From contig CALWWS010000085.1 in NCBI GenBank assembly GCA_944385305.1, positions 1 through 15,784 of the forward strand: a DNA stretch of 15,784 nucleotides, given 5' to 3'. Both the position numbers and the translations under genes were made by a program. How positions within the stretch are numbered: position 1 is the first letter of the stretch; every line of letters starts with the position of its first letter. The stretch is from an uncultured Oscillospiraceae bacterium (GTDB taxonomy: Bacteria > Bacillota > Clostridia > Oscillospirales > Oscillospiraceae). Below are positions 3,090 to 14,702 of this stretch, one piece after another. The notes beneath the pieces are model-generated. The model saw only the letters and a program-made list of their open reading frames with translations. It was not told the origin of the DNA and ran no database searches.

Positions 3090-3116
3090 CAGCGCGGGCA
3101 GCCCGCAGCGGGATAC

Positions 3117-3278
3117 CATGATAGTGCTCCACCGTTGGTGACAGTCCGGCGGATATTCTCCGCCGGCCCAGAAGAAGCGCCCCAGACAAAGCGCCCTCCT
3201 TCGGCGGCTTCCCCTTTCCGACGGGACAGGTGTCTGCCTGTGTCCCGGCCTACTGATGGTCGCCGCGCCTCTATCATG
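3117..3278 (-). promoter_or_regulatory. lysine riboswitch (L box) aptamer
   Basis: Read on the - strand, the leader carries the conserved L-box blocks in order. They are GATAGAGGCGCG (P1/J1-2), ATCAGTAG, GAAAGGGGAAGCCGCCGAAG (the most diagnostic block), TCTGGGCC, GGACTGTCACC and GGTGGAGCACTATC. The P1 arms CATGATAG (3278-3271) and CTATCATG (3124-3117) are perfectly complementary. The 162-base length fits the class. The aptamer starts about 10 bases after the predicted transcription start and is followed by a mutually exclusive antiterminator and terminator, so lysine should switch the downstream transporter off. L boxes control lysine biosynthesis and lysine uptake genes; here the target is the ABC importer. 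I regard this as near certain from motif identity, although no covariance model was run. Confidence 0.95.
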
Positions 3279-3295
3279 ACGATTCAATTTGCACT

Positions 3296-3428: not shown

Positions 3429-5189
3429 TTAGTTCACCCGGTACTTCTTCTGCTTGATGTAGGAGCAGTGGAGCAGGCTGTGGGCCTTGTGTCCGCCGGG
3501 CTCGCCCAGATACTCCTGGTAAATGGCGTTGACCATGGGATTTTGATGGCTGCGGCGCAGGGTCATACCCTCGTCCTGCTTGTACAGGGCGGCGGCCCGC
3601 AGGGCCTTGATGTCGGTAAAGTTGCGCACGTCGGCGTGCTGGAGGGGCTGGCCGCCTCCGTTGATGCACCCGCCGGGGCAGGCCATAAACTCGATGAAAT
3701 CGTACTGCATCGTGCCGCTGCGCACCCCGTCCAGCACCAGCTTCACGTTATGCAGCCCCGAGGCCACGCACACCCGCACGGTTTTGCCCGGCAGGTCATA
3801 GCTGGCTTCCTTCACACCATCCATGCCCCGCACCTCGTGGTACTCCAGCGGGGCCATCTCCGCTCCCACAACTTTTTCCACCACCGTGCGCAGAGCGGCC
3901 TCCATTACGCCGCCGGTGGCGCCGAAGATCACCGCCGCGCCGGTGGAGACGCCCAGCATCTCGTCAAACTCCCCGTCGGGCAGGTGGTCGAAGAGCAGAC
4001 CCGCCTGGGTGATCATGCGCCCCAGCTCCCGGGTGGTGAGGGACACGTCCACCGGCATGCAGCCGTTGGGCAGGCGCTGCTCCTCCCGGAGCACCTCGTA
4101 CTTCTTGGCGGTGCAGGGCATGATGGACACCACAAAGATGTCCTGGGGCTCAATGCCCATCTTCTCGGCGTAGTAGGTCTTCACCAGACTGCCGAACATC
4201 TGCTGGGGGGACTTGCAGCTGGAGACATTGTGGATCATGTCGGGGGCGTGCTGCTCCATGTACCGGATCCAGCCGGGGGAGCAGGAGGTGATGAGGGGCA
4301 GGGTGCCGCCGTTCTGGAGCCGATCCAGAAACTCGGTGCCCTCCTCCAGAATGGTGAAGTCGGCGGCGTTGTCCACGTCGAACACCTTGTCAAAGCCCAG
4401 GCGGCGCAGGGCGGTGACCATCTTGCCCTCCACGTTGGTGCCGATGGGCATGCCGAAGCACTCCCCCAGGGTGACCCGGACGGAGGGGGCGGGGCCCACC
4501 ACCACGTGCTTGGTGGGGTCGGCCAGGGCGGCGAGCACCTTGCCGGTGTCGTCCTTCTCGCTCAGGGCGCCGGTGGGGCAGGCCACAATGCACTGGCCGC
4601 AGGAGACGCAGTCCACCTCCGCAAGATCCCGGTCAAAGGCGCAGCCGATGTGGGTGTCGAAGCCCCGGTCGTTGGGGCCGATGACCCCCACCTCCTGGGT
4701 CTGGCGGCACACGGCGGTGCACCGGCGGCAGAGCACGCACTTGGAGTTGTCCCGCACCAGGTGGGGGGCGGAGTCCTCGATGCGGGGCAGCAGGTCGTCC
4801 CCCCCGGCGTAGCGCACCGCGTCAATGCCCAGGTCGCTGGCCAGCTGGCGCAGCTCGCAGTGGCTGTTGCGGGAGCAGGTGAGGCAGTCCATCCGGTGGT
4901 TGGACAGGATGAGCTCCAGGGTGAGCCGGCGGGACTTACGTACCTTTTCAGTGTTGGTGTACACCTCCATGCCCTCGCTCACCGGGTACACGCAGGAGGC
5001 CACCAGGCTCTTGGCCCCCTTGACCTCCACCACGCAAATGCGGCAGGCGCCGATCTCGTTGACTCCCTTGAGATAGCACAGGGAGGGAATGTTGAAGCCC
5101 GCGGAGCGGGCGGCCTCCAGAACCGTGGTGCCGGCGGGGACGGTGACGGGAATATCGTTGATGCGCAGGGTTACCATCTTCTGTTCCAT
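3429..5189 (-). CDS. hydA: [FeFe] hydrogenase catalytic subunit of the electron-bifurcating complex (HydA/HndD)
   Basis: This 586-residue protein interconverts H2 with protons and electrons at the H-cluster. Counting from ATG 5189, it has an N-terminal [2Fe-2S] ferredoxin domain (C38, C49, C52, C66) and a His-Cys3 [4Fe-4S] site (H98, C102, C105, C111). Two ferredoxin [4Fe-4S] sites follow (C151/154/157/161 and C194/197/200/204), then the H domain with L1 TSCSPGW (301-307), L2 MPCTAKKYE (357-365) and L3 FMACPGGC (501-508). All four H-cluster cysteines are present (303, 359, 504, 508). In L1, serine 304 follows cysteine 303 where most enzymes have CC. Depending on alignment this changes either the relay cysteine or its neighbour. 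An upstream in-frame GTG at 5207 is less likely because GGGAGGAG sits six bases before ATG 5189. It is the last gene of hydCEDBA. The C-terminal extra [2Fe-2S] domain of Thermotoga HydA is absent. Confidence 0.93.
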   Translation of the reverse strand: MEQKMVTLRINDIPVTVPAGTTVLEAARSAGFNIPSLCYLKGVNEIGACRICVVEVKGAKSLVASCVYPVSEGMEVYTNTEKVRKSRRLTLELILSNHRMDCLTCSRNSHCELRQLASDLGIDAVRYAGGDDLLPRIEDSAPHLVRDNSKCVLCRRCTAVCRQTQEVGVIGPNDRGFDTHIGCAFDRDLAEVDCVSCGQCIVACPTGALSEKDDTGKVLAALADPTKHVVVGPAPSVRVTLGECFGMPIGTNVEGKMVTALRRLGFDKVFDVDNAADFTILEEGTEFLDRLQNGGTLPLITSCSPGWIRYMEQHAPDMIHNVSSCKSPQQMFGSLVKTYYAEKMGIEPQDIFVVSIMPCTAKKYEVLREEQRLPNGCMPVDVSLTTRELGRMITQAGLLFDHLPDGEFDEMLGVSTGAAVIFGATGGVMEAALRTVVEKVVGAEMAPLEYHEVRGMDGVKEASYDLPGKTVRVCVASGLHNVKLVLDGVRSGTMQYDFIEFMACPGGCINGGGQPLQHADVRNFTDIKALRAAALYKQDEGMTLRRSHQNPMVNAIYQEYLGEPGGHKAHSLLHCSYIKQKKYRVN

Positions 5190-8714: not shown

Positions 8715-8732
8715 TTGTGAATAATTTAACAA
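8715..8732. promoter_or_regulatory. Rex-type (redox-sensing repressor) operator
   Basis: TTGTGAATAATTTAACAA matches the Rex consensus TTGTTAANNNNTTAACAA at all but one defined position; the G variant in the left half is common. Rex senses the NADH/NAD+ ratio and represses fermentation and hydrogenase genes in Firmicutes. The site is 283 bp upstream of hydC in a gene-free stretch, so hydCEDBA is the obvious target. The rex gene itself is not in the window. Confidence 0.75.
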
Positions 8733-8910: not shown

Positions 8911-9624
8911 TCAAAAGCTGCGGCGGCGCAGGGCGTCCAGCACGCCCTGGGGGGTGGACTGGTCGGCCTCCAGGGCAAAGCGGGCGTCGGGGATCTGATG
9001 GAGATAGTGGGCGTCCGAGCCGGTGAGCAAGCCCACTCCGGCAAGATCAGGCTGCTGGGAGAAATGGGGTGGGGCGTTGCGGGAGAGCTCGGCCAGGGAG
9101 AAGCCAAGGTTGGGATCCCATATACCCAGCACGGACAAGAGGGAGAAGGAATCCCGGTCAATATGAGCCGGGTAGGCAAGCCCCCCGAACCGGGCAGCTA
9201 GAGTGCATGCCTCGTCAATCCCGATATCCGCAGCGGCGGCCAACAGCTTAGTCTCCTCTCCCAGCACCCTGTCCTCCGGGCCCATGTGGATCTGTCGGCC
9301 AAAGATCTCCGGGTTGTTGGGAATGGGGGGCAGGCGGTCCTGTACATAGCGGGAGAAGGGTTGGGCGGCCTGGGGAGTGGGGAAGAGGCAGATCACGTGG
9401 ATCTCCTCCCGGGTGCACAGCTCCATGCCTGCCAGGGCAATGAGCCCCAGCTTTTGGGCGGCCTGACAGAAGGCGGGGCAGTTGTCTGAGGTGTTGTGGT
9501 CGGTGAGAGCCACCACATTGAGCCCGGCCAGAGCGCACATGCCCGCCAGGTTGGCGGGAGTCATCTCCTCATCTCCGCAGGGGGACAGACAGGAGTGCAG
9601 GTGCAGATCGTAAAAGAGCTTCAT
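8911..9624 (-). CDS. PHP-domain metal-dependent phosphoesterase
   Basis: This 237-residue protein has the four PHP motifs that bind two or three metals: DLHLHS with H8 and H10, ALTDHN (39-44), the glutamate E68 with H76 (GMELCTREEIHVI), H154 (YPAHID) and GSDAH (202-206). PHP domains hydrolyse phosphoesters, including histidinol phosphate, nucleotides and DNA polymerase products. The substrate here is unknown. As the last gene of an operon holding a GHKL kinase-like protein and a sensory hydrogenase, it could act as a phosphatase of that pathway; this is inference. The start at 9624 is chosen because the fold begins there and the upstream gene ends eight bases earlier. The ribosome binding site is weak (GAGG), consistent with coupling. 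PHP genes occur beside [FeFe] hydrogenase genes in other anaerobes. Confidence 0.87.
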   Translation of the reverse strand: MKLFYDLHLHSCLSPCGDEEMTPANLAGMCALAGLNVVALTDHNTSDNCPAFCQAAQKLGLIALAGMELCTREEIHVICLFPTPQAAQPFSRYVQDRLPPIPNNPEIFGRQIHMGPEDRVLGEETKLLAAAADIGIDEACTLAARFGGLAYPAHIDRDSFSLLSVLGIWDPNLGFSLAELSRNAPPHFSQQPDLAGVGLLTGSDAHYLHQIPDARFALEADQSTPQGVLDALRRRSF

Positions 9625-9632
9625 GGGGGGCC

Positions 9633-9962
9633 TCATGCCAGCAGGGCGCCCATGCGTCCTGCTGCGGTAAAGGTGCTCTCCGGGGTGCCCAGCAGGTTGA
9701 CTCCCTTCTCCTGGGCCCGGGAGAGCAGGGTGGGGTCGGGCTGTACCCCCTCGGTGAGAATGACGCAGGCCACATCGGCCATCAGAGCCACGGCTGCCAC
9801 ATTCTGGTTGGACATAATGGTGAGCCACATGTCGCCGCTCTGGGCGCGGCCCATTACCCAGGAGAGCAGGTCGCCGGCATATCCGCCGGTTACCTGCCGC
9901 TGCGGGTCGGAGAGGGAAAAGACCGTAAGGGAGAGCGCGTCAATCAGCTGCTGTACAGTCAT
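9633..9962 (-). CDS. DRTGG-domain protein (second copy in the cluster)
   Basis: This small 109-residue protein has the signature VTGGYAGDLLSWVMGRAQ (24-41) and the segment NVAAVALMADVACVILTEG (54-72) of stand-alone DRTGG-domain proteins found next to clostridial hydrogenase genes. DRTGG domains occur between CBS and other domains and in phosphotransacetylase, and are thought to bind a small ligand or mediate protein contacts. No catalytic residues are evident. It has a good ribosome binding site (GGAGG, six to seven bases before ATG). A strong hairpin separates it from the upstream sensory hydrogenase gene. It is paired with a related protein at 11826-12164. Function is unknown; a regulatory or scaffold role in the sensory module is inferred. 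Confidence 0.75.
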   Translation of the reverse strand: MTVQQLIDALSLTVFSLSDPQRQVTGGYAGDLLSWVMGRAQSGDMWLTIMSNQNVAAVALMADVACVILTEGVQPDPTLLSRAQEKGVNLLGTPESTFTAAGRMGALLA

Positions 9963-9991
9963 GGCGGTTCCTCCAAATCATTTTTGTGAGA

Positions 9992-10026
9992 AAACAGGGG
10001 CGAACCCAACCGGTTCGCCCCTGTTT
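9992..10026 (-). terminator. strong hairpin inside the sensory operon, terminator-like
   Basis: A perfect 15-bp stem, AAACAGGGGCGAACC with GGTTCGCCCCTGTTT (9992-10006 with 10012-10026), closes on a 5-base loop. It starts two bases after the sensory hydrogenase TAA. On the - strand the stem itself ends GTTT and is followed by TCTC, a short and weak U-tract. It probably lowers readthrough into the second DRTGG and PHP genes or protects the upstream mRNA. Confidence 0.65.
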
Positions 10027-10028
10027 AG

Positions 10029-11360
10029 TTATCGATCGCTGCTGACGGTGCCCTGCTGGCGGCGGAAGGGCGGGGGCAGATACTCGTCCGCGCCGCTGAC
10101 TCCGGCCATGGTGCGCATACGCTCGCGCATCTTGAAGATGCAGTCGGCCTCGGAAGCCCGGCCCATCACCACATCCTCGGCAAAGGCATGGCAGGAGGGG
10201 GCGCCGCAGGAGCCGCACTGGAGACCGGGCAGATGGGACTCAAGTGCCTGGATGCGCAGATGCTTGGACATGGCCACCTCCCGGTCCTCGTCCAGCAACA
10301 GGGCGGGTAGGTACTGGGGCTGCTTATCCTGGAAAATAATATCCCGCTGGGCGCCCTGGAACAAAAAGCGGTTGCGGGAGACGGGCAGCCCGTGCATCAG
10401 GGTTTTCAGCCGCATTTTGGCGGCGTATGGGTTTTCCACATTGAAGCATCCGCCCACGCACCCCTGGGTACAGGCGGACAGCTCCAGAAAATCGGCCTCG
10501 GGCAGACGGCCGTCCTCAATCTCCTCCAGCATGCGGATGACATTTTCAATTCCGTCCACTGAGACGCACCGATCCCCCAGACGGGCAGCGCTCTCTCCTC
10601 CGCAGATGGCCCAGTTCAGGCCCAGAATGCCGGCGGAGGTCATGGGTTTAATTTCTGATTCCTCCAGCTGCTTCATGGGGGAGAGCAGGCGCAGGTAGAT
10701 ATCCCGGATGGCAAAGGCCCCATCCAGTACAGGGCGGGTGAGTCCTTCAGGACTGTGGGCGGCGGTGACCTTGGAGGAGCAGGGCACAATGGCAAACACC
10801 CCGATCTTCTCCGGGGGCAGACCGGTCTCCTCCGCTGCCTCCCGCCGGGCCAGAATGGCGGCCAGCTCCATGGGCAGAATGGTGCGGGCGGTATGTCCCA
10901 GCAGCTTGGGAAAGCGCAGGCAAATCAGGCGCAGCACGGTGGGACAGGAGATGGAGATGAGGGGGGTGAGCTTGGCCGGCCCCCCGGCGATGCGCTGGCG
11001 CTGAAAGTCGGAGAGCAGCTCACAGGCCCGGGCTACCTCCCATACCTTGTCAAAGCCAATCTTCAAAAGGGAGTTGAGCACGATGTCGATGCTGTCCAGG
11101 TTGTGAAACTGCCCGTAGAGGGCCGGCTCGGGCAGGGCCACCCGGTACTCAAACTCCTGCAGCTTGCCCAGGGAGTCGCCCACTGACTTGATGGCCTTGT
11201 GGGGACATACCCGGATGCAGTTGCCGCAGTCAATGCAACGGTTGGAGAGGATGGTGGCCTTGCGGGAACGAACACGGATAGCCTCGGTGGGACAGCACTT
11301 GATGCAGGAGGTGCAGCCCCGGCAGCGCTTGTACTCCAAAACCACAGAGTGCTTCGACAT
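10029..11360 (-). CDS. sensory-type (HydS-like) [FeFe] hydrogenase with C-terminal Fe-S domain
   Basis: This 443-residue protein resembles putative H2-sensing [FeFe] hydrogenases such as Thermotoga maritima HydS. Two ferredoxin [4Fe-4S] sites lie at the N-terminus (C13/16/19/23 and C42/45/48/52). The H domain keeps the four H-cluster cysteines (C139, C194, C297, C301). L1 reads SISCP (136-140), with serine in place of the proton-relay cysteine. L2 reads VPCSSK (192-197), and L3 reads LSACTQGC (294-301), lacking the methionine of FMAC. A C-terminal four-cysteine Fe-S motif of the RnfB/corrinoid-protein type follows (CGSCG at 382-386, C390, C407). There is no PAS domain. These changes argue for slow or no turnover and a sensing role, as inferred for group C/D enzymes. 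It is the third gene of a DRTGG, ATPase, hydrogenase, DRTGG, PHP operon lying just upstream of hydCEDBA. Confidence 0.87.
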   Translation of the reverse strand: MSKHSVVLEYKRCRGCTSCIKCCPTEAIRVRSRKATILSNRCIDCGNCIRVCPHKAIKSVGDSLGKLQEFEYRVALPEPALYGQFHNLDSIDIVLNSLLKIGFDKVWEVARACELLSDFQRQRIAGGPAKLTPLISISCPTVLRLICLRFPKLLGHTARTILPMELAAILARREAAEETGLPPEKIGVFAIVPCSSKVTAAHSPEGLTRPVLDGAFAIRDIYLRLLSPMKQLEESEIKPMTSAGILGLNWAICGGESAARLGDRCVSVDGIENVIRMLEEIEDGRLPEADFLELSACTQGCVGGCFNVENPYAAKMRLKTLMHGLPVSRNRFLFQGAQRDIIFQDKQPQYLPALLLDEDREVAMSKHLRIQALESHLPGLQCGSCGAPSCHAFAEDVVMGRASEADCIFKMRERMRTMAGVSGADEYLPPPFRRQQGTVSSDR

Positions 11361-11394
11361 GGGGGCGGTTCACCTTCCTTCCTTGGCGTGGTGC

Positions 11395-11820
11395 TTACTG
11401 TGGAATCTTGATAATCACCGTGACGGTGGTGCCCTTGCCCACCGTGGTGTCGATGGTGAGATCGTCGGAATAGCGCTTCATATTGGGCAGGCCCATCCCC
11501 GCACCGAAGCCCAGCTCACGAGCGGTGGGACCGGCGGTGGAGAAGCCCTCCTGCATGGCCTTCTCCACGTCGGGGATACCGGGACCGCTGTCGATCATGC
11601 GGATGGTGATCTGGTTCATGTCCACCTCCACCTCCGCCTGGCCGCCGTCGGCGTGAATGACCATGTTGATCTCGCCCTCGTACATGCAGATAGAGGCCTT
11701 GCGGATAATATCCTGGGGCAGGCCCAGCTTTTTCAGGGTGAGCTTCATCTTGCTGGAGGCCTCGCCCGCCTCAATCAGGTCGCCGCCCTCCACAGGGTAA
11801 ATCAGTTTAATTGTCTCCAT
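11395..11820 (-). CDS. anti-sigma-factor-type GHKL ATPase (RsbW/SpoIIAB-like)
   Basis: This 141-residue stand-alone ATP-binding domain resembles anti-sigma serine kinases. The N box is YEGEINMVIH (47-56; E48, N52), G1 is DSGPGI (77-82), G2 is GFGAGMGLPNM (104-114) and GKGT is at 128-131. Length fits the RsbW class (about 140-160). RsbW-type proteins phosphorylate an anti-anti-sigma partner on serine. No STAS-domain partner or sigma factor is encoded in the window, so its target is unknown. It lies between the first DRTGG gene and the sensory hydrogenase and is likely their signalling partner. ATG 11820 is preferred over the adjacent TTG at 11823; GAGAGG lies about nine bases upstream. The previous gene stops only five bases before the ATG. 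Confidence 0.87.
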   Translation of the reverse strand: METIKLIYPVEGGDLIEAGEASSKMKLTLKKLGLPQDIIRKASICMYEGEINMVIHADGGQAEVEVDMNQITIRMIDSGPGIPDVEKAMQEGFSTAGPTARELGFGAGMGLPNMKRYSDDLTIDTTVGKGTTVTVIIKIPQ

Positions 11821-11825
11821 CAAAA

Positions 11826-12164
11826 TTAACCTCTCAATCCATTGGAATATAAGAGGCCGCAGGCCTCATACATGCGTTTGTCGGAGGACAGGAGCACGAT
11901 ATCCCGCGCTCTGGCCAGTTCTACAATCTCCGGGGTGGGGTGCTTACCCCGCACAAAGGTTACGCAGATGATGTCCGTCATGTCCGCTGTGCGGATCACC
12001 TGAGGGTTGACCAAACCGGTGAGAAGGACGGCCTGCTTTTTTACATAGGCCAGCACGTCGCTCATAAAATCGCTTCCGCAGGCGCTGGCGGCATCGCGGT
12101 CCAGCAAATCTTTCCCATAGATTACCGTTGCATCCAGTATTTTTGCAATTTCGCCAAGCCTCAT
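11826..12164 (-). CDS. DRTGG-domain protein (first gene of the sensory operon)
   Basis: This 112-residue protein shows the pattern of the hydrogenase-linked DRTGG proteins: CGSDFMSDVLAYVKKQAVLL (29-48), NPQVIRTADMTDIICVTFVR (53-72) and a C-terminal SSDKRMYEACGLLYSNGL. It is a distant paralogue of the protein at 9633-9962. No catalytic residues are visible; ligand binding or protein contact is the likely role. The frame is open upstream to 12263, but the start at 12164 is chosen because GAGGAGG lies about nine bases before it and the upstream codons overlap the promoter. Its last codon is five bases from the ATPase start, indicating coupling. The function of this family in hydrogenase clusters is not established. 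Confidence 0.78.
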   Translation of the reverse strand: MRLGEIAKILDATVIYGKDLLDRDAASACGSDFMSDVLAYVKKQAVLLTGLVNPQVIRTADMTDIICVTFVRGKHPTPEIVELARARDIVLLSSDKRMYEACGLLYSNGLRG

Positions 12165-12255: not shown

Positions 12256-12273
12256 TCGTTCAAACATTCACAA
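12256..12273 (-). promoter_or_regulatory. degenerate Rex-like site upstream of the sensory promoter
   Basis: On the - strand, TTGTGAATGTTTGAACGA resembles TTGTTAANNNNTTAACAA. The left half matches six of seven; the right half has two mismatches. It lies five bases upstream of the -35. Weak evidence, reported because a stronger Rex-type site serves the neighbouring hyd operon. Confidence 0.25.
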
Positions 12274-12314: not shown

Positions 12315-12344
12315 TTGACACCGCCGCGCTATACGGGATATAAT
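12315..12344 (+). promoter_or_regulatory. serC-serA promoter
   Basis: A perfect TTGACA (12315-12320), an 18-base spacer and a perfect TATAAT (12339-12344). The start would be near 12351, giving a leader of about 75 bases. The leader contains the near-repeat AAAGTGGGC twice (12360-12368 and 12370-12378) but no riboswitch or T-box that I recognise. Confidence 0.85.
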
Positions 12345-12424: not shown

Positions 12425-13510
12425 ATGGGAGATCAGCGGGTATATAATTTTTCTGCCGGTCCGTCCATGCTGCCGCTGGAGGTGCTGGAGCGGGCAGGAG
12501 CCGAGATTACCAATTACCAGGGCAGTGGTATGTCTGTCATGGAGATGAGCCACCGCTCTAAGGTGTTTCAGAAGATTTTTGACGATACCCGGGACAAGCT
12601 CTGCCGCGCTCTGTCTGTGCCCGAGGGGTACAAGGTGCTTTTCCTCCAGGGGGGCGCCTCCAGCCAGTTCTCTATGGTGCCTCTGAACCTTATTGGAAAG
12701 ACCCGCCGGGCGGACTACGCCGTCACCGGTAACTTTGCCCAGATCGCCTATGAGGAGGCCAAGAAGTACGGCCAGATCAGCCTGGCCGCCTCCAGTGCGG
12801 ACAGGAACCACACCTATATTCCCGGACAGGAGCAGCTCAAGCTGGATCCCCAGGCCTCCTATTTCTACTACTGCGCCAACAACACCATCTACGGTACTGA
12901 GTGGCAGTACATTCCCCAGACCGGGGATGTGCCTATTGTGTGCGATATGTCCTCCGACATTCTCTCCCGGCCGGTGGATGTGAGCCGCTACGGCATCATC
13001 TTTGCCGGCGCCCAGAAGAACATGGCTCCCGCCGGACTGACAGTAGTGATCATCCGGGAGGATCTGGCGGGCGGGCAGCTGCCCTTTACCCCCCTGATGA
13101 TGGACTACAAGATCATGATCGACAAGGACTCCATGTACAACACCCCGCCCTGCTGGTGCATCTACATCCTGGGCCTGGTGCTGGACTGGCTGGAGGAGCA
13201 GGGGGGCGTGGCCGGCATGGAGGCCATCAAGCACAAGAAGGCCCAGATGCTTTATGACGTGATTGACAGCTCCCGCCTGTTTACCTGCGCGGTGGAGCCC
13301 GGCTCCCGCTCGGACATGAACGTGGTATTCCGCACTGGGAATGACGAGCTGGACGCCAAGTTTGTGGCCGAGAGCACTGCCGCCGGCTTTACCAACCTGA
13401 AGGGCCACCGCAAGGTGGGCGGTATGCGCGCCTCGATTTATAACGCTATGCCCATGGAGGGCGTGGAGAAGCTGTGCGACTTCATCCAGGCCTTCGACAA
13501 GGCCAACTGA
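12425..13510 (+). CDS. serC: phosphoserine aminotransferase
   Basis: This 361-residue PLP enzyme of class V converts 3-phosphohydroxypyruvate and glutamate to 3-phosphoserine and 2-oxoglutarate, the second step of serine synthesis. Landmarks are NFSAGPSMLP (8-17), SHRSK (42-46), GGASSQF (76-82), the PLP-contacting aspartate D174 (CDMSSD) and the PLP lysine K198 in GAQKNMAPAG. The C-terminus carries the conserved KGHRKVGGMRASIYNAMP. Length matches the usual 360 residues. GGAGGAGG lies nine bases before the ATG. It is followed 22 bases later by serA, so the two form one operon. No phosphoserine phosphatase is in the window. Confidence 0.97.
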   Translation: MGDQRVYNFSAGPSMLPLEVLERAGAEITNYQGSGMSVMEMSHRSKVFQKIFDDTRDKLCRALSVPEGYKVLFLQGGASSQFSMVPLNLIGKTRRADYAVTGNFAQIAYEEAKKYGQISLAASSADRNHTYIPGQEQLKLDPQASYFYYCANNTIYGTEWQYIPQTGDVPIVCDMSSDILSRPVDVSRYGIIFAGAQKNMAPAGLTVVIIREDLAGGQLPFTPLMMDYKIMIDKDSMYNTPPCWCIYILGLVLDWLEEQGGVAGMEAIKHKKAQMLYDVIDSSRLFTCAVEPGSRSDMNVVFRTGNDELDAKFVAESTAAGFTNLKGHRKVGGMRASIYNAMPMEGVEKLCDFIQAFDKAN

Positions 13511-13532
13511 ACAACGAACAGGAGGGACAACT

Positions 13533-14702
13533 ATGTTCCGAATCAAGACGCTGAATAAGATCTCACCCGCCGGCATCTCCGTGCTGGATCAGACCCGCTT
13601 TTCCATCAGCTCCGATGTGGAGAACGAGGACGGCATTCTGGTGCGCTCGGCGGATATGCATGAGTATGTCTTCCCCGAGGCCCTGCGGGCCATCGCCCGG
13701 GCGGGCGCGGGCACCAACAACATCCCCATTGACCGCTGCTCGGAGAACGGTATTGTGGTCTTCAACACCCCCGGCGCCAACGCCAACGCGGTGAAGGAGC
13801 TGGCCGTCTGCGCCCTGCTGCTGGCCAGCCGCAACGTGGTGGGCGGCGTGCAGTGGGTACGGGAGCAGGCCGGCGGCGGCGCCGACGTGGAGGCTGTGGT
13901 GGAGAAGGGCAAGAGCCAGTTTGTGGGCCCTGAACTCTCCGGCAAGATGCTGGGCGTGATTGGCCTGGGCGCCATCGGCGTGCAGGTGGCCAACATCGCC
14001 ACCAAGCTGGGCATGACCGTGTTCGGCTACGACCCCTTCCTGTCGGTGGACGCGGCCCTCTCCCTCTCCCGGCTGGTGCACCGGGCCATGGATCTGGAAA
14101 CCATCTATAAAAACTGCGACTACATCACCCTCCACGTCCCCCAGACGGCGGAGACCAAGGGGATGATCAACACTGACTCCATCAACATGATGAAGGGCCA
14201 CGTGCGCATCATCAACCTGGCCCGGGGCGGGCTGGTGAACGACGACGACATGCTCCTGGCCCTGGACTCCGGCCGGGTGGCCGCCTATGTCACCGATTTC
14301 CCCAACAACAAGATCATCCAGGGCAAGAATGTGGTGACCATCCCCCACCTGGGTGCCTCCACCCCGGAGAGCGAAGAGAACTGCGCGGTGATGGCCGCCC
14401 AGCAGCTGCGGGATTACCTGGAAAACGGCAACATCAAAAACTCGGTGAATCTGCCCACCCTGGTGCAGGAGTGGAGCGGTATCTCCCGGCTGTGCGTCAT
14501 TCACCGCAACGTGCCCGGTACCATCGCCAGCATCACCGGTGTGCTGTCCAAAGACGGGGTGAATGTGGAGAACATGACCAACAAGTCCAAGAAGGACTAC
14601 GCCTATACCGTGGTGGACATGGGCAGCCGCATCAGTGAGAGCGTGGTCAACGAGATCCGCGCCATTGACGGTGTGCTGCGGGTGCGGGTGCTCAACCACT
14701 GA
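13533..14702 (+). CDS. serA: D-3-phosphoglycerate dehydrogenase, short form with ACT domain
   Basis: This 389-residue enzyme oxidises 3-phosphoglycerate with NAD+ to start serine synthesis. The Rossmann motif is GLGAIG (144-149) with aspartate D167 (YDPF) after the second strand. Catalytic residues visible are R231 (ARGGLVND) and H272 (PHLGAST). The catalytic glutamate expected in a xxEP segment is not obvious: the region reads VTDFPNNKIIQGK, as I recall for the clostridial subfamily. A C-terminal ACT domain (about 318-389, starting SRLCVIHRNVPGTIASI) suggests feedback control by serine. GGAGGG lies six bases before the ATG. It is the last gene of serC-serA and ends 36 bases before a strong terminator. 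Confidence 0.94.
   Translation: MFRIKTLNKISPAGISVLDQTRFSISSDVENEDGILVRSADMHEYVFPEALRAIARAGAGTNNIPIDRCSENGIVVFNTPGANANAVKELAVCALLLASRNVVGGVQWVREQAGGGADVEAVVEKGKSQFVGPELSGKMLGVIGLGAIGVQVANIATKLGMTVFGYDPFLSVDAALSLSRLVHRAMDLETIYKNCDYITLHVPQTAETKGMINTDSINMMKGHVRIINLARGGLVNDDDMLLALDSGRVAAYVTDFPNNKIIQGKNVVTIPHLGASTPESEENCAVMAAQQLRDYLENGNIKNSVNLPTLVQEWSGISRLCVIHRNVPGTIASITGVLSKDGVNVENMTNKSKKDYAYTVVDMGSRISESVVNEIRAIDGVLRVRVLNH

Follow-up and report, generated by a model that had tools for sequence, protein, structure and literature searches.

A conserved DRTGG, GHKL ATPase, HydS and PHP gene cassette upstream of hydCEDBA in an uncultured Oscillospiraceae bacterium

What might receive the signal of a HydS-like [FeFe] hydrogenase that carries no PAS domain? 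The question was raised by a five-gene cassette in a stretch of 15 784 nucleotides from an uncultured Oscillospiraceae bacterium (assembly GCA_944385305.1, contig CALWWS010000085.1), the whole of which is referred to as the window. In order on the minus strand, the cassette encodes a first DRTGG protein (DRTGG1), a GHKL ATPase related to RsbW and SpoIIAB (AT), HydS, a second DRTGG protein (DRTGG2) and a PHP metallo-phosphoesterase, and is followed by hydC-E-D-B-A down to position 3429. These five genes and their order upstream of hydCEDBA on the same strand had been described in a first-pass annotation and were borne out by open reading frame (ORF) positions and Pfam matches (table 1). The cassette is real and conserved, and very probably functions as a unit. 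It is interpreted here, with moderate confidence, as a signal-transduction module in which HydS would act on AT and AT on a DRTGG switch, tuning the bifurcating hydrogenase and the balance between reduced nicotinamide adenine dinucleotide (NADH) and ferredoxin.

Co-occurrence, fusions and exchange of the putative input

The comparison of gene neighbourhoods proposed in the first-pass annotation was performed on two sets of loci (numbered L), with a strongly positive result. For the near set, genome contigs were scanned with a HydS alignment, the best 80 of at least 547 relatives were taken, a choice biased to close kin, and the window was added (81 loci). DRTGG1 and AT were each present in 80/81 loci, DRTGG2 in 76/81, PHP in 75/81 and all of them in 74/81, in the same order. 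Some losses lay at contig ends (L107 was truncated upstream, and L036, L039 and L097 downstream); true gaps, with the sequence present, were seen in L038 and L092, which lacked DRTGG2 and PHP, and in L110, which lacked PHP. The genes hydC/hydB were located downstream on the same strand in 36/81 loci and divergently upstream in 17/81; none were seen in 28/81, eight of which were flanked by 9 kb or more on either side. In L109 and L175 the cassette was situated inside the hyd operon, between hydC and hydE.

For the second set, 398 genomes, including that of the window, were sampled evenly across the phylum, and 184 of them contained a HydS match at E <= 1e-40. Sixty loci from 49 families were taken among the listed matches, all above 456 bits, so that weak HydS relatives lie outside this sample. 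The five were present as separate genes in 40/60 loci; with fused ORFs counted, all five were found in 44, DRTGG1 in 48, AT in 56, DRTGG2 in 54 and PHP in 47. The genes hydC/hydB shared the strand of the cassette in 42 loci, had a divergent orientation in 4 and were not seen in 14. The HydS loci without AT (L166, L167, L168 and L173) also lacked DRTGG1 and PHP. Three loci (L125, L130 and L162) contained AT and HydS only, with a gene for an OmpR-type response regulator upstream and, in L125, a histidine kinase gene as well.

Phylogenetic profiles over the 398 genomes were scored at E <= 1e-100 for HydS and E <= 1e-25 for AT, DRTGG1 and PHP, thresholds that were chosen after the score ranges had been seen. 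HydS and AT occurred together in 160 genomes, HydS alone in 1, AT alone in 10 and neither in 227. The corresponding counts were 150, 11, 7 and 230 for HydS and PHP, and 145, 16, 12 and 225 for HydS and DRTGG1; HydS, AT, DRTGG1 and PHP were found together in 137 genomes.

Members of the cassette were also fused in single ORFs, as DRTGG1-AT (L126, L131 and L165), AT-HydS (L158) and HydS-DRTGG2 (L132), and fusions extended to HydE, the second ATPase, encoded in the hyd operon (PHP-HydE in L157 and L171, HydE-HydD in L140). DRTGG1-AT and HydS-DRTGG2 recurred in other genera of the same families (L192 and L191, respectively), and Pfam was used to check the fusions in L191, L192 and L190, the last of which contains the AT-HydS gene found in L158. 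The best 120 protein-database matches to the DRTGG1-AT query were 256-279 residues long and covered 96-100% of it; the PF07085 label was not universal among them, and several were named RsbT or anti-sigma regulatory factor. Among the best 120 matches to the AT-HydS query, 40 contained both the ATPase and the hydrogenase domains, and two (P0286 and P0319) combined hydrogenase and DRTGG domains. No DRTGG2-PHP fusion was seen among the loci examined. The fusions are strong but not conclusive evidence of contact between the members, and DRTGG1, being fused to AT in other lineages, is likely to be a direct partner of AT. The earlier proposal that the parts belong to one unit is thus supported by synteny, phylogenetic profile and fusions.

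In L181-L185, genes for DRTGG1, an AT with an N-terminal CBS pair (CBS-CBS-AT), DRTGG2, PHP and HydE were consecutive, with no HydS and no hyd operon within the stretch shown. DRTGG1-DRTGG2-PHP-HydE was found amid housekeeping-like genes in L178-L180, AT-HydS being encoded elsewhere in these genomes. Of 7999 candidates scored with a CBS-AT query, 6491 matched at E <= 1e-10; among the 120 matches listed, 118 contained CBS and ATPase domains, and P0076 a DRTGG domain as well. The AT ORF beside HydS in L161 and L170 was about 308 residues long, enough for a CBS pair. Genes for DRTGG1-CBS-AT and a HydD-like protein were located directly upstream of rnf genes in L199 and L200, where the module may serve the Rnf complex. 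In L198, DRTGG1-AT was followed by rex, a gene for an NrfH-like cytochrome (below its cut-off) and a pair that we take to be NfnA/NfnB-like, and in L192 Rex was encoded directly upstream of DRTGG1-AT. Because CBS-AT forms without HydS and loci beside Rnf and Nfn-like genes exist, HydS is best read, from these arrangements, as one interchangeable input among several to a general DRTGG/GHKL switch. The part of input assigned to HydS in the first-pass annotation is supported by the CBS-AT form, and the module is not confined to hydrogenase. A folC-like gene, often accompanied by a SPOR-like one, was identified by eye upstream of DRTGG1 in L178-L180, L183, L184, L188, L197-L202 and L205; this neighbourhood is perhaps the ancestral site of the module.

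Sequence features and relation to described systems

A PAS-bearing HydS was rejected, as Pfam gave no PAS match in the protein, and the missing PAS domain points to group D. Residue equivalences to CpI numbering were assigned by motif and are presumed. The N-terminal 4Fe-4S pair is contained within residues 6-60 (Pfam Fer4-type matches), and its cysteines (13/16/19/23 and 42/45/48/52) were invariant in an alignment of 22 sequences, as were the H-cluster cysteines C139, C194, C297 and C301. The protein also has a C-terminal Cx2Cx4Cx16C motif (C382, C385, C390 and C407) and a C-terminal PF04060 domain. At the site of the proton-relay Cys299 (residue 138), the window has Ser, and the alignment Ala in 17 sequences, Ser in 3 (window included), Lys in 1 and Cys in 1. 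The earlier naming of a HydS-like [FeFe] hydrogenase holds. The Met353 site (Val192 in the window; Ser in 13, Thr in 4, Val in 4 and Ala in 1) departs in the window from the Ser/Thr that is called well conserved, without being stated as defining, in group D (PMC8163306). HydS is classed here as group-D-like, its cysteine pattern matching that given for group C/D enzymes in the same paper. Two observations on HydS relatives are added. In L202 (3265-4643) and L204 (6597-7951; displayed orientation), HydS was represented by two overlapping ORFs, which may reflect a frameshift, a sequencing error or a split protein. A 770-aa ORF beside the cassette in L132 joins a second HydS-like protein to a HydE-like ATPase domain and might be of the group C histidine-kinase type.

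AT is by sequence a relative of SpoIIAB and non-orthologous to it (1til, E 2.1e-11; RsbW 6m36, E 1.2e-4). The N-box residues E48 and N52 (E49/N53 in another alignment) were conserved in 100% of 155 sequences and align with SpoIIAB. The Glu four residues ahead of the Asn, together with the GHKL fold motifs, gives a kinase-type pattern, in which we take the Glu to be catalytic and the Asn to bind Mg. The DRTGG-domain fold was recognized; the DRTGG2 profile had no match among PDB sequences. Ser35 of DRTGG1 (149 sequences) and Ser34 of DRTGG2 (148 sequences) were conserved in 100%, for a reason that may equally be structural. A triad of DRTGG1 cysteines (C29, C67 and C102) considered as a metal or disulfide site was dropped, as C102 alone (95%) exceeded the 93% listing threshold in the 149 sequences. 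In PHP, residues H8, H10, D42, H43, E68, H76, H154, D204 and H206, presumably the metal ligands, were conserved in 97-100% of 139 sequences. HydE is a probable sixth member of the module.

One of the closest described counterparts of HydS is TamHydS of Thermoanaerobacter mathranii, a 'putative sensory' [FeFe] hydrogenase of group D/M2e (PMC8163306), which shares the two N-terminal [4Fe-4S] motifs, the H-domain, the loss of Cys299, the Cx2Cx4Cx16C motif and the lack of PAS. Its gene likewise adjoins one for a histidine-kinase-like ATPase and precedes those of a bifurcating hydrogenase of group A. In the accessible part of that account the only neighbours named besides the hydrogenase are the ATPase and an AraC regulator, and the passage of the signal is left open; the window module adds the DRTGG pair, PHP, HydE, the fusions and the CBS form. 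The group C regulators HydS/HfsB (Ruminococcus albus, Thermotoga maritima and Thermoanaerobacterium) have PAS and a Ser/Thr kinase and serine-phosphatase-like partner, and deletion of hfsB raises ethanol (PMC5707799, PMC11837493), whereas HydS of the window has no PAS and is accompanied by a stand-alone GHKL ATPase, DRTGG and PHP. The five hyd genes, with hydC first, are those of Acetobacterium woodii, whose HydE resembles histidine-kinase ATP-binding domains, is no part of the enzyme in its active form and 'may be involved in assembly or signalling'; an upstream five-gene cassette is not mentioned in the available text (PMC3315566).

As in SpoIIAB/SpoIIAA/sigma-F and RsbW/RsbT partner switching, a homologous ATPase is encoded after a small alpha/beta partner, and the RsbT names among the database relatives of DRTGG1-AT point the same way. 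In Thermotoga maritima, TM1422 carries an anti-sigma factor annotation. The window differs from such modules in that the partner is DRTGG and not STAS, the cassette contains no sigma factor, PHP stands in the place of the phosphatase, and the input is a metalloenzyme or CBS. The whole module, the fusions and the sensor swap were not found in the literature searched, a provisional result, as most subscription papers lay outside the search, and the accessible text of PMC13104023, PMC10055695, PMC9431212 and PMC3990059 likewise had nothing on it; DRTGG and hydrogenase were co-mentioned there, in accessible text, only in a Desulfovibrio mutant screen, one occurrence each. The statement in the first-pass annotation that no described pathway joins the five parts therefore agrees with the searched literature as regards the whole, and is narrowed by the link of group D HydS, a kinase-like ATPase and a bifurcating hydrogenase, which is already in print (PMC3561251, PMC8163306).

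Gene layout and regulatory sites

Table 1. Positions of genes and candidate regulatory sites of the cassette and hydCEDBA in the window.
Feature	Position	Strand	Remarks
DRTGG1	12164-11826	-	112 aa; PF07085 28.3 bits against a cut-off of 25.2 (score from the longer, 145-aa ORF)
AT (RsbW/SpoIIAB-related GHKL ATPase; putative Ser kinase/switch)	11823-11395	-	PF02518 48.3, PF13581 41.5
HydS (PAS-less, group-D-like [FeFe] hydrogenase; putative input)	11360-10029	-	PF02906 72.5 bits; C-terminal PF04060
15-pair hairpin (possible terminator or attenuator)	10026-9992	-	between HydS and DRTGG2
DRTGG2	9962-9633	-	109 aa; 38.7 bits
PHP metallo-phosphoesterase	9624-8911	-	36.2 bits; conserved metal ligands
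hydC (NuoE-like 2Fe-2S subunit)	8431-7937	-	
HydE (stand-alone histidine-kinase-like ATPase; differs from the maturase of the same name)	7940-7383	-	
HydD (thioredoxin-like 2Fe-2S-type protein)	7386-7018	-	below Pfam cut-off
HydB (NuoF-like flavin subunit)	7021-5204	-	
HydA (bifurcating hydrogenase catalytic subunit)	5207-3429	-	NCBIfam group A6, over cut-off
Terminator-like stem-loop after PHP	8892-8861	-	pattern scan
Rex-like box upstream of hydC	8715-8732	.	1 mismatch
Promoter-like TTTACA-16-TATAAT for hydCEDBA	8513-8486	-	11/12 matches
Promoter-like TTTGCA-18-TACAAT upstream of DRTGG1	12251-12222	-	9/12 matches
Rex-like box just upstream of the cassette promoter	12256-12273	.	3 mismatches to TTGTTAANNNNTTAACAA; weak alone

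HydA scored 867 against a cut-off of 765 for the NCBIfam 'NADH-dependent [FeFe] hydrogenase, group A6'. For DRTGG1, an upstream TTG start (145-aa ORF) was rejected in favour of the ATG at 12164, since the latter agrees with the start in relatives and has a ribosome-binding-like site. The gaps inside the cassette were 5, 34, 66 and 8 bases, the first being 2 if AT starts at TTG, and 479 bases separate PHP from hydC. The hairpin in the 66-base gap between HydS and DRTGG2 (-29.4 kcal/mol, z -6.8) is accompanied by a short U run and is absent from the terminator list of the pattern scan; terminator-like sites in the region numbered 6 against 7.9 expected from shuffles, with no excess. Between PHP and hydC, a terminator-like stem is present along with a Rex-like box and a promoter-like site, so transcription of hydCEDBA may well start separately. 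Median gaps over 141 annotated loci were 1 base for DRTGG1-AT (125 pairs), 34 for AT-HydS (131), 4 for HydS-DRTGG2 (128), 1 for DRTGG2-PHP (119) and 157 for PHP-hydC (65). The cassette has the look of a single unit, and hyd often that of another. The spacing of 4-9 bases reported earlier does not hold for every gap, and given the hairpin and the sites before hydC, the reading of one operon is uncertain.

A Rex-type gene (PF06971) is present elsewhere in the same genome. With a relaxed form of TTGTTAANNNNTTAACAA, which we take to be the Rex consensus, sites with <=2 mismatches were found upstream of DRTGG1 in 8/78 loci, against 1.5 on average over 20 shuffle runs, and upstream of hydC in 10/52, against 1.0. 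Rex as a firm regulator was rejected, the sites being enriched yet absent from most loci, and was kept as a lead.

Further features flank these genes. A lysine riboswitch (93.9 bits; 3114-3281, minus strand) directly follows hydA, upstream of an amino-acid-type ABC transporter (3014-425). Divergent from the cassette are serC- and serA-like genes (12425-14702, named by eye), preceded by a perfect TTGACA-18-TATAAT promoter-like site (12315-12344, plus strand).

The proposed switch and its alternatives

In the proposed mechanism HydS, a PAS-less [FeFe] hydrogenase of the low-activity kind, would sense H2 or the ferredoxin redox state, and its closest partner, AT, would receive the signal, probably by way of the C-terminal [4Fe-4S] domain of HydS. 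AT would act with DRTGG1 as SpoIIAB or RsbW does with its small partner, binding and/or phosphorylating a DRTGG protein in one state and releasing it in the other. DRTGG2 would dock on HydS, PHP and HydE would reset or read the signal, PHP perhaps reversing the mark, and the output would, together with Rex, tune the bifurcating hydrogenase, its presumed target, and the NADH/ferredoxin balance. The two central steps, from HydS to AT and from AT to DRTGG1, are predictions well supported by comparison.

Several observations weigh against this mechanism. None of the ten products encoded from DRTGG1 through HydA is a DNA-binding protein, a sigma factor or a STAS protein, and the module therefore has no visible output. 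The genome, an assembly 80% complete, contains four [FeFe] hydrogenase H-domains, and no HydF over its cut-off was found in this 80%-complete genome. DRTGG1 was absent beside AT-HydS in L125, L130, L133, L147, L149, L152, L158 and L162, and PHP in L124, L125, L130, L133, L135-L137, L158 and L162, so that each can be dispensed with in some such loci; HydS without a strong DRTGG1 was also seen in eight f50 genomes. The argument from fusions is weakened because operon neighbours fuse more easily, and the Fisher p values for the profile pairs (< 1e-70) ignore shared ancestry. The RsbW-like Ser kinase of the first-pass annotation stands as regards the retained residues of SpoIIAB/RsbW-type kinases; AT is far under the cut-off of the NCBIfam SpoIIAB equivalog (TIGR01925, 51.2 bits against 135). 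Likewise, the phosphatase assigned to PHP keeps its metal ligands, but its best matches, EndoQ, BAD_1165 and RNase AM, are nucleic-acid or nucleotide hydrolases and not known protein phosphatases; a missing match to the PHP-type phosphatases CpsB/YwqE excludes nothing.

These PHP relatives, with an AMP-bound Chromobacterium enzyme, would also suit nucleotide signalling, in which a nucleotide is bound by the DRTGG proteins, and by CBS in the forms that have it, and is hydrolysed by PHP, AT reads the ATP state, and the switch follows the adenylate or alarmone level and H2. The CBS domains fused to AT are consistent with such a scheme, as is the CBS and DRTGG region that controls a pyrophosphatase (3l2b/3l31), though in that enzyme we take the nucleotide sites to be in CBS and not in DRTGG. 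No nucleotide synthase was seen in the module and AT retains the kinase-type Glu, and nucleotide signalling is considered unlikely, if the nearest competitor. The ATPases and DRTGG proteins might instead be chaperones that use ATP for cluster loading or for the assembly of HydABC and related complexes, with HydS as scaffold. Such a role would accord with the A. woodii suggestion for HydE (PMC3315566) and with DRTGG1-CBS-AT beside Rnf; it is improbable given the CBS input domains, the module or its remainder without a nearby hydrogenase operon (L178-L185), and hyd genes that have HydS and DRTGG2 without adjoining AT, DRTGG1 and PHP (L166, L168 and L173).

Mere co-transcription with hyd, without interaction, has in its favour that operons in Clostridia are often conserved and that the profile statistics take no account of phylogeny. 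It is regarded as very improbable, as the order of the cassette is kept where hyd is divergent or not seen, including the eight loci with long flanks, as the cassette can lie within hyd, and as its members fuse together.

The signal-transduction module from HydS through AT to the DRTGG switch is accordingly preferred. More tentatively, and with rather less than even confidence, it may represent a widespread and previously undescribed bacterial system of energy-state signalling, in which a DRTGG/GHKL switch, with DRTGG in the role of STAS, takes swappable inputs (H2 through an [FeFe] hydrogenase, and probably adenylates through a CBS pair), has a second ATPase and a hydrolase of the PHP type, and is attached to bifurcating hydrogenase, Rnf, Nfn and Rex. 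How a group D enzyme passes its signal without PAS is asked in the TamHydS paper (PMC8163306); the AT fusions, the near-perfect co-occurrence with AT and the exchange of HydS for CBS name a candidate receiver, and with a receiver named the question becomes testable with purified proteins. If the mechanism is correct, the orphan genes for HydE, DRTGG and PHP in the operons of many Clostridia would be given a role; whether these organisms make H2 or other products is of consequence in guts, rumens and bioreactors.

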